Below, piece after piece: positions 4,117-48,946 of a stretch of DNA of 64,000 nt. This DNA is from Powellomyces hirtus. Lineage: Eukaryota; Chytridiomycota; Chytridiomycetes; Spizellomycetales; Powellomycetaceae. The position numbers and the translations under genes were made by a program. Positions within the stretch are counted from its first letter, which is position 1. Each line of letters starts with the position of its first letter. The notes below the pieces were generated by a model. It searched no databases. It had not been told where the DNA came from and saw only the letters and a program-made list of their open reading frames with translations. Location of the stretch: positions 1 to 64,000 of the forward strand of contig JAHLKG010000019.1 of NCBI GenBank assembly GCA_025526995.1. The letters are read 5' to 3'.

Positions 4117-5548
4117 TCAATTGGCAGCTTTGGCCAGCTCGCGTTTTGTCACGTACAGTGTCGGCTCGTTGACTTTGGGAGATGGAAGGGTTAAATGTCC
4201 GTCATAGTCGGTCGGGAGGCGGCAGGAATGAAATTGACTCACCGATAACAACATGTCCGCCAAGGGGCTTGTGCTTGATATTGTCCAGCGACCCGACTTT
4301 GGAATGGGCGCGCGGCCGCACCGGCACGTCGGTGATTTGCACTTGTCCGCCGCCCGGGACATGCGCAATGTTCTGTGCCATGGTGGAAAAAAAAATGAGT
4401 AATCCACAGAGGTAACTACGAACGAGGTACAGACGAGTCTGTACCTCAAAGCTTCCGACTTTAGATGCCACGCGGCTCAGTTTGGCAGTTTTGATGGGTT
4501 CATCTACAATTCGCTTCTTGCCGCCGCCTGGTCGGTGGTGGATGTTGTCTGTAAGTGTAAATTTGATCAGGAGATTTGTTTGGAGCTATCTAGCTCGCTG
4601 CTTTGATGCCGGTGCGTTACCAAGCGATCCGATCTTAGACGATATCTTCCGCCGACCAGGCAACGCCGTCGGGACCTCGACATAGTTGCTCACGACGGGC
4701 GATCGGAAAAAGCCCGCTGCGGTGCTCAGGCGGGCCGAGTGCCTGAAGGTGCTCTGCCAGAGAAAAATTAGAATCGTCCGTGAACAACAACACATAGGTT
4801 CGGCGAAATTTACATCAGAAGACGCCAAGAGCGCATTGGCGCTAACCGAGCGTGACAATGCCCGGCTGTTCCTGCGTGTGCCATAGGTCGACTGCGGTTT
4901 ATGGTTGATATTGTCCCAAGACCCGACTTTAGACTGCGCGCGGTCGCTGAAGTGGAGGGGTTCGTTGATAATTTGAACTTCGCCCCTGCAAAGGTAGACG
5001 TGCTTAGACATGGGTAGCAATAGACTGATAATGATGTTGTGCTTCCCACTTCCCTTACCCTGGCGGCGTCCAGTGCAGATTGTCAAGCGACCCGACCCGG
5101 CTTTGCGCCTGCTTTTTGAATTGGAGTTTTTGATCAAAGATTTTGACGTCCCCTATGAGATTCGAAAGTCTCACATCAAAAAAGGTGGATTATACAAAAA
5201 GCCATCCTCGAGCCAAACACATACCACCCGGTTTTTGCCAATGTACGTTATCCTACCAGACAAAGCCCTCATAAGTCAAAATTCACGGAAAGGGGAAACA
5301 ATCCACCCATCTACCCGTTCTCATCTCGCTCTCCCACGCACCTTTGACCCTACTTTCGGTTCCACCACAACGACATGCACAGCATGAGCACTAGCCGATT
5401 TCACACGGACCGCCTTCTTCGGTTCCGTGCCCAACGTATTCACCGGCGGGAGACCCGGGTGGGGCGTGAGGCTCTGTCTACGAACGGTGGTGGATACGGT
5501 CGTGGGGCGCGGGACTTGAATGCCGAGGGTTTGGCTGGAGATGGGCAT
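4117..5548 (-). CDS. tau/MAP2/MAP4-like microtubule-associated protein, five tubulin-binding repeats
   Basis: Tau-family repeats bind along microtubules and stabilise them. Exons on the minus strand: 5548 to about 5342, 5152-5059, 4985-4814, 4753-4621, 4548-4445, 4372-4243 and 4172-4117 (stop). Exons 2-7 join with consistent phases; the exon 1 donor is unresolved, because the obvious GTGCGT at 5341 is phase 0 while exon 2 needs phase 1. The N-terminus (MPISSQTLGIQVPRP...) is Pro/Thr/Ser-rich. Five repeats follow, with cores SRVGSLDNLHWTPPGGG, SKVGSWDNINHKP, SKIGSLDNIHHRPGGG, SKVGSFENIAHVPGGG and SKVGSLDNIKHKPLGG, each preceded by a VKI/VQI-type hexapeptide. This matches the Pfam tubulin-binding repeat (KVGS-x-DN-x-x-H-x-PGGG). 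Repeat 2 has lost PGGG and is followed by a 55-residue spacer. Splice junctions fall inside or just before repeats. Confidence 0.85.
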
Positions 5549-48216: not shown

Positions 48217-48946
48217 CTATACAGCCGCAACTGCATGTGCCATACCCTCATCCGTCGATTTCGCAACCTGTCCCACCGCATCCCCGCTCTTCTTGACACT
48301 ACCACCCTCCACCCGGCTCTCGATCCTGGGTTTCGCAGTCTCCTTGAAATGCAGTTTCTGCGTCGGGATCTTGACACCGCCGCGCGAAGGCACGTGCGCA
48401 ATATTGTCCAGACTGCCCACCTTTGATTTGACCCCGTGCGTGAAATCGAGTTTTTGCGACACAATCTTCTTGTCCCCGGTCGCGGGCACGTGCGCAATAT
48501 TGTCCAGACTGCCTACCCGCGATTTGACCCCGTGCGTGAAATCGAGTTTTTGCGAAACGATCTTTTTGTCGCCCCCCGACGGGTGGTGGTGGATGTTCTA
48601 TACATGCGCGGAATGCAGAGGGGAGAAAGGAGGTTCGCAATGATGATCATTAATTTTCCATTTATTTTTTAGTGAAGCCGCAATCCCACTCCACATTCAC
48701 ATCTTCACGCTCACATCTCTCACACACACCCATACTCACGTCCAACGAGCCGACTTTACTCGCGACCTTATATTTCTTGGTCTCGGAAAAGATCTTCTTT
48801 GTGCTATTCGTAGGCGTATGGTGGATGTTCTCCAGACTCCCCACGCGCGAGGAAACAGCGCTTTTGCCGCCGGGGGTGCGGAGGCTCGTGCGCGAGGACG
48901 CCGTTTGGAGCGGCGAGGGGGTTGCTAGTACGTTGTCGGACGACAT
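48217..48946 (-). CDS. second tau/MAP-like protein with tubulin-binding repeats
   Basis: Exons 48946-48740 and 48597-48217 (intron GTGAGT...TATAG, phase 0), 195 residues. Repeat cores are SRVGSLENIHHTP, SKVGSLDNIHHHPSGG, SRVGSLDNIAHVPATG and SKVGSLDNIAHVPSRGG, plus a degenerate SRVEGGS end. Linkers DKKIVSQKLDF and VKIPTQKLHF correspond to the VQI-x-x-K-x-LDF part of animal tau. Repeats 2 and 3 are nearly identical over a 96-nt (32-residue) unit, so one is a recent duplicate. The intron lies between SLD and NIHH, the same place inside the repeat as in the first tau-like gene at 4.1-5.5 kb. The protein is almost entirely repeats, with a short Ser/Thr/Pro N-terminus and an Ala/Gly-rich tail. Microtubule binding is inferred from the family. 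Confidence 0.86.

Follow-up and report, generated by a model that had tools for sequence, protein, structure and literature searches.

The stretch of Powellomyces hirtus DNA that we analyzed (64,000 nucleotides, referred to here as the window) contains two genes with tau/MAP2/MAP4-type repeats, both on the minus strand of one contig and separated by about 43 kb. Gene A extends from 5548 to 4117, and its splice model comprises eight exons encoding a 307 aa product, in agreement with a preliminary description that placed a multi-exon gene here. Its seven introns are all of the GT-AG type and 60-89 bases long. Gene B, the second tau-family gene in the window (48946-48217), consists of two exons encoding 195 aa. 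The features of the two genes are as follows.

Gene A, exon 1: 5342..5548, minus strand; start codon, basic N-terminus, and first KVGS core (aa 65); splice model and gapless alignment with P0014.
Gene A, exon 2: 5225..5252, minus strand; remainder of repeat 1 (DNVHWQKPGG); splice model.
Gene A, exon 3: 5059..5152, minus strand; repeat 2; PF00418 (40.8 bits) and splice model.
Gene A, exon 4: 4814..4985, minus strand; repeat 3 with the EVQIIN strand, and start of the linker; PF00418 (43.5 bits) and splice model.
Gene A, exon 5: 4621..4753, minus strand; linker and beginning of repeat 4 (KIGSL); splice model.
Gene A, exon 6: 4445..4548, minus strand; remainder of repeat 4 and beginning of repeat 5 (KVGSFE); splice model.
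Gene A, intron 6: 4373..4444, minus strand; phase 0, immediately 3' of KVGSFE.
Gene A, exon 7: 4243..4372, minus strand; remainder of repeat 5, and repeat 6; PF00418 (40.9 bits) and splice model.
Gene A, exon 8: 4117..4172, minus strand; conserved C-terminal tail and stop; splice model, and tail recognisable in all eight gene A relatives listed.
Gene B, exon 1: 48740..48946, minus strand; start, N-terminus, repeat 1, and beginning of repeat 2 (KVGSLD); PF00418 (27.8 bits) and splice model.
Gene B, intron: 48598..48739, minus strand; phase 0, immediately 3' of KVGSLD.
Gene B, exon 2: 48217..48597, minus strand; remainder of repeat 2, the whole of repeats 3 and 4, tau-like post-repeat stretch, C-terminus, and stop; PF00418 (45.9 and 43.8 bits) and splice model.

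The P. hirtus protein P0014 aligned with the gene A product without gaps over 307 residues (8 differences), indicating that a separate annotation has the same exon joins. The splice model was also backed by relatives in Geranomyces, Thoreauomyces, Spizellomyces, Phlyctochytrium, and Rhizophlyctis. The product of gene A is basic (pI 10.75 for the whole protein) and free of cysteine, and no acidic stretch was found at its N-terminus (1 acidic and 7 basic residues among the first 60).

The preliminary description counted five repeat copies in this gene, each with a V-x-I hexapeptide and a PGGG turn. We found six KxGS cores instead (at aa 65, 97, 129, 207, 241, and 271), arranged as three cores, a linker, and three further cores with spacings of 32, 32, 78 (across the linker), 34, and 30. 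Five PF00418 stretches passed individually in hmmscan. The V-x-I strand ahead of the core was clear in repeats 2 (DVKIF), 3 (EVQII), and 6 (QVQIT) and imperfect in repeat 5 (KKRIV), and its standard form was absent from repeats 1 and 4. The PGGG turn was complete in repeats 4 and 5 only; in repeats 1 (KPGG), 2 (PPGG), and 6 (PLGG) it was shortened or altered with two glycines retained, and it was missing from repeat 3.

The four cores of gene B are spaced by 30, 32, and 32 residues. The cores of repeats 2-4 are preceded by the strands KKIF, KKIV, and KKIV, respectively, and that of repeat 1 by none. The PGGG-type turn of repeat 2 retains two glycines, and the turn is weaker elsewhere in the protein. 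The product (pI 10.07 for the whole protein) contains no cysteine, and no acidic N-terminal stretch was found (3 acidic and 9 basic residues among the first 60). P0001 of P. hirtus is 97% identical to the gene B product and exceeds it by three residues, which are inserted between the repeat 3 and repeat 4 cores. In its layout, gene B is nearer to animal tau than gene A is, and it possesses a tau-like stretch after the last repeat. Further, the intron of gene B and intron 6 of gene A occupy the same codon position within the repeat in the same phase (0). This common position fits a relationship of paralogues, one position in a repeat protein being weak evidence.

When the spliced products were compared with Pfam using hmmscan, PF00418 (the tau/MAP tubulin-binding repeat; cut-off 27) matched gene A with 195 bits (E 1.3e-58) and gene B with 143.5 bits. 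The spliced gene A protein, for which the preliminary description had proposed this search, therefore scored far above the threshold, and tau/MAP2/MAP4-type repeats are present in a fungal gene as it had claimed. Residue-shuffled controls, two for each protein, gave no Pfam match at E<=0.001 (0 of 4), which rules out chance or composition as the source of the repeats. Further, when nine fungal relatives and the Sphaeroforma protein were compared with Pfam, all ten scored above the PF00418 cut-off. In the 29.3 Mb genome, there were six exon matches to PF00418, all within genes A and B, as detected by an exon-by-exon search that repeats split by introns elsewhere could escape. Two other assignments of gene B were set aside: PF10267 was below its cut-off, and DUF3704 scored 22.1 against a cut-off of 21.9 over 12 residues, with no stretch passing individually in either case.

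All ten cores in the window read [KR][VI]GS with an asparagine three residues after the serine, and three of them are RxGS. A serine precedes the core in nine of the ten. Histidine occupies the position found in tau in eight, the exceptions being repeats 1 and 2 of gene A, which read NVHW and NLHW. When these cores are compared with those of other groups, conservation is partly by construction, because the search pattern itself fixed several columns. Judged by these comparisons of sequence and profile, we confirmed that the repeats are real and that genes A and B are true members of the tau/MAP2/MAP4 family.

A search of solved structures returned tau chains for both products among the rows shown, with best E values of 1.3e-37 for gene A (8ttn_A) and 3e-34 for gene B (6cvn_D). 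The chain 6cvn_D appears to be engineered, because the same repeat recurs in it several times; its alignment with gene B does not stop at the cores but takes in sequence that in tau follows the last repeat. For 9h5g_A, 9hbb_A, and 6cvj_D, as judged by their match ranges, the similarity extends to gene B residues 161-163. The best stretch shared with the 441-residue tau chains ends at residue 130-131 of gene B in a shifted register and does not cover the post-repeat stretch. In gene A, a distinct tail takes the place of the tau-like post-repeat stretch.

Like animal tau (MAPT), MAP2, and MAP4, the window proteins are basic and combine KxGS-x-[DE]-N cores with turns of the PGGG type and a repeat spacing near 31 aa. 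A V-x-I strand precedes part of the cores, being clear in three gene A repeats and imperfect or absent in the others of that gene, and gene B resembles animal tau in the stretch after the last repeat. In contrast to the animal proteins, they are short and lack cysteine and the acidic N-terminal stretch, and the six repeats of gene A are split 3+3 by a linker. The acidic N-terminal projection domain is a feature of vertebrate tau and MAP2 and is not known as one of the family at large. Nematode PTL-1 and other invertebrate tau-like proteins are repeat proteins of the same Pfam family outside vertebrates. Gene A differs from the invertebrate proteins in that its joining with pancrustaceans was rejected, as described below.

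Of the 114 proteins that a search with the gene B protein detected at E<=0.001, 23 were named as fungal, and animal members from Globodera and arthropods were also among them. Two further searches, using a 17-member alignment (best 120 of 2892) and gene A (best 120 of 2208), added five fungal proteins among the matches listed. The named fungal relatives amount to at least 28 proteins from at least 17 genera and three phyla. Among the matches listed, Chytridiomycota were represented by ten genera, namely Powellomyces, Geranomyces, Thoreauomyces, Fimicolochytrium, and Spizellomyces (all Spizellomycetales), together with Rhizophlyctis, Phlyctochytrium, Dinochytrium, Cladochytrium, and Batrachochytrium; Mucoromycota by four (Bifiguratus, Umbelopsis, Syncephalastrum, and Helicostylum); and Glomeromycota by three (Gigaspora, Cetraspora, and Racocetra). 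The matches also included an ichthyosporean protein, from Sphaeroforma arctica. No Dikarya or Blastocladiomycota names were among the matches listed in the three protein searches. This is not proof of absence, because two of the searches cover their best 120 matches and because a match must have five-letter words in common with the query and fall within a length window. Two environmental tau-like proteins, P0116 and P0127, have many degenerate repeats. In the Mucorales, which are fungi without flagella, the proteins of Syncephalastrum and Helicostylum (P0168 and P0242) have eight and seven KxGSx[DE]NIKxK cores, respectively, most of them near-perfect.

Mucoromycota and Glomeromycota are not known to have flagella. 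The suggestion in the preliminary description that the family survives in flagellated fungi holds for the chytrids but is too narrow, because seven of the 17 genera belong to these two phyla, whose members show that the family is not strictly bound to flagella. Genes A and B could nevertheless serve solely the zoospore flagellar apparatus, given that the source species is a chytrid and that gene A-type proteins carry chytrid names only among the named matches listed (P0023 may also be of the A type). However, the family as a whole is present in fungi without flagella, with seven to eight cores in Syncephalastrum and Helicostylum, and we consider such an exclusive role unlikely. The TPPP/p25alpha domain is not known to be related to the tau repeat. 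TPPP/p25alpha resembles the tau family in being a tubulin-related family kept by chytrids; in contrast, it is reported to track the flagellum (PMC9698843, PMC10459994), which the tau family does not among the matches listed.

The relatives of gene A have in common the 3+3 layout and a recognisable tail, and in six of eight alignment rows the N-terminus resembles [A]P[IT]SSQ, the exceptions being the Thoreauomyces and Rhizophlyctis rows. The columns that are invariant among them lie mostly in the repeats and the tail, with few in the linker. The gene A family formed one clade of nine rows with a support of 100/99 in both of the trees that we inferred. In this clade, Powellomyces and Geranomyces are joined by Thoreauomyces (all Powellomycetaceae), then by Spizellomyces and Phlyctochytrium, and then by Rhizophlyctis. 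Phlyctochytrium arcticum P0019, which NCBI places in Chytridiales, sits among the Spizellomycetales, and Rhizophlyctis (Rhizophlyctidales) lies outside; the order of the clade thus does not wholly follow the NCBI orders, the misfit being Phlyctochytrium, and the other rows fit. The gene B group of the first tree comprised eight rows with a support of 96/90, including Spizellomyces, Thoreauomyces, Geranomyces, Fimicolochytrium, and Batrachochytrium, and was not recovered in the second tree, which leaves out six long or unlike rows. We are accordingly less sure of B than of A as a single family.

Powellomyces, Geranomyces, Thoreauomyces, Spizellomyces, and Rhizophlyctis each possess, besides an A protein, one or more further members, which we call B here; in Spizellomyces, SPPG_00495 is of the A type, and SPPG_07449 groups with B. 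Because an A protein is accompanied by another in each of these five genera, the duplication that gave rise to A and B, as judged from the proteins found, is probably older than the genera.

The preliminary description offered two origins for the fungal genes, namely a family older than the animal-fungal split or a gain by transfer. The first tree contained 28 fungal rows (26 from databases plus the products of genes A and B) and the second contained 27, and in neither best tree did the fungi form one side of a branch; the backbone was weak. In AU tests of groupings that were chosen after the first tree was inspected, placing all fungi together was not rejected (p-AU 0.113 in the first tree and 0.092 in the second), nor was placing the chytrid A and B rows together (p-AU 0.145, first tree). 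Joining gene A with pancrustaceans was rejected (p 0.00096), joining gene B with them was marginal (p 0.035), and joining either gene with vertebrates was not rejected (p 0.168 for A and 0.424 for B). The trees alone do not decide between ancestry and transfer.

Horizontal transfer from an animal would account for the resemblance to tau by origin. It gains from the family being best known from animals, from the scattering of the fungal rows in the best trees, and from the vertebrate groupings that the AU test did not reject. However, the relatives extend over at least 17 fungal genera of three phyla and an ichthyosporean, for which an opisthokont ancestor is a simpler reading than transfer. 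Further, the gene A clade (100/99) spans several chytrid orders, so that any gain would have to be old, the pancrustacean groupings were rejected for A and marginal for B, and a single fungal group was not rejected. We consider transfer quite improbable. The distribution of the family suggests that animals and fungi probably inherited it from their common ancestor, and of the two origins offered we favor this one. Such a deep ancestry requires losses, or gaps in the match lists, because no Dikarya or Blastocladiomycota were among the matches listed.

In tau, the residues equivalent to the core contact alpha-tubulin near the dimer boundary. The last 173 aa of the alpha-tubulin encoded in this genome match a PDB alpha-tubulin chain with an E value of 1.5e-112, and a helix of 27 residues shows no difference from that chain. 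If expressed, the A and B products would be largely unfolded in solution and would lie along microtubule protofilaments, with each KxGSxDN core at a tubulin dimer boundary holding adjacent tubulins together. Bridging of tubulins by the cores would in turn stabilise or bundle microtubules. The microtubules served may be those of the rhizoid or hyphal cytoplasm and, in chytrids, perhaps the root microtubules of the zoospore.

We found eight KA1 matches in the genome. ORFs were viewed at four loci, and kinase-like exons lay upstream of the KA1 ORF at all three loci that were read with upstream DNA. At one locus (L023, C5:1493500-1497600), the best matches of the kinase piece were animal SIK3 (E 3.1e-104) and MARK1 (E 1.6e-101), and the tail ORF contained KA1 and a SIK3-type UBA; their order suggests that the kinase piece and the KA1 tail form one gene. 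Both this gene and a second one that is kinase-like as judged by eye and ends in KA1 (L025, C8:275400-279000) are candidates for a KxGS kinase. The occurrence of a KxGS-type motif in all ten window cores in a genome with a SIK/MARK-type kinase exon and a KA1 tail makes a KxGS phospho-switch in the A and B products possible, whereby MARK/SIK-type kinases would detach the protein from the microtubule by phosphorylating the KxGS serine.

Animal tau also binds partners other than microtubules. The repeats might be real in proteins that have taken on another role, such as that of basic disordered proteins binding RNA or actin, and have lost the ability to bind microtubules; the altered features of gene A repeats 1 to 4 would agree with this. 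On the other hand, most of the invariant gene A columns lie in the repeats and the tail with few in the linker, gene B matches the tau chains through its repeats, and alpha-tubulin is nearly unchanged; we give repurposing little credence, slightly less than transfer. The reading that we prefer, with a probability of roughly 0.86, is that A and B are true tau/MAP2/MAP4 genes, that their products are basic, probably unfolded, putative KxGS-switched microtubule binders, and that the family probably dates back to the ancestor of animals and fungi. A wider scenario, which we hold with less confidence and regard as reasonably likely, is that a tau-MARK microtubule module predates animals and neurons. 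The module would have been present in the opisthokont ancestor and kept in chytrids, Mucoromycota, and Glomeromycota, duplicated early in chytrids into the six-repeat A and the tau-like B, and lost before or within Dikarya. Such a loss would explain its lack in yeast and mould models.

Research has treated tau almost exclusively as a protein of animals and, for the most part, of neurons. The kind of protein described here is already known, and fungal entries from Powellomyces, Spizellomyces, Rhizophlyctis, Bifiguratus, and others, which include orthologues or relatives of the window genes, bear the name "Microtubule-associated protein" in databases. These names are automatic as far as the listing shows, and in contrast to them the reading of two families, A and B, is made here. 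We found no account of fungal tau-family members in the literature searched, outside which most subscription papers lie. A 2022 proteome-wide survey of PF00418 proteins covers vertebrates and invertebrates, and "fungi" and "fungal" are absent from its main text, although its supplementary species list may include fungi (PMC8985376). A word look-up in the MAP and tau papers PMC4815063 and PMC6759874 gave none of six fungal or unicellular terms. In two other papers, fungi are mentioned for CM1 gamma-tubulin receptors and in the references (PMC13406575), and in a sole passage on intron retention. The claim of the preliminary description that a fungal tau-like protein would be new biology must therefore be narrowed: databases already hold such proteins, and it is their discussion that is lacking from the literature examined. 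What we add to a known family is a branch in fungi for which we found no description, represented here by two paralogues that lie on one contig at a distance of about 43 kb. With members in fungi both before and after the loss of the flagellum, the original, non-neuronal job of tau would become testable in chytrids such as Spizellomyces. These members would also help to separate ancestral features of tau (the KxGS cores and perhaps the post-repeat stretch) from animal additions (the projection domain and cysteines).

Powellomyces belongs to the Spizellomycetales, Powellomycetaceae (NCBI lineage). The counterparts of both window proteins are PhCBS80983 entries of P. hirtus on 141 and 129 kb contigs of a separate assembly. 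Animal contamination of the contig or of this part of it, a possibility raised in the preliminary description and for which solely the animal-like look of the repeats speaks, is refuted by the 97% identity of both products to these separately assembled counterparts. The 66-68% identity of gene A to its Geranomyces relatives and the position of the window within a 668 kb contig also speak against it, and we assign it practically no weight. Ten of the 15 window ORFs submitted to Pfam matched a family: zinc alcohol dehydrogenase, polysaccharide deacetylase, DUF4112, SPFH, GH28, MFS transporter, CCCH zinc finger, transferase, mitochondrial carrier, and glycosyltransferase. These neighbouring families are ordinary and, with polysaccharide deacetylase and GH28 as examples, fit a fungus, although they are not proof of the kingdom by themselves. 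The polysaccharide deacetylase gene (PF01522; 49593-50906, plus strand) adjoins gene B, and its product has a serine/threonine-rich C-terminal part.
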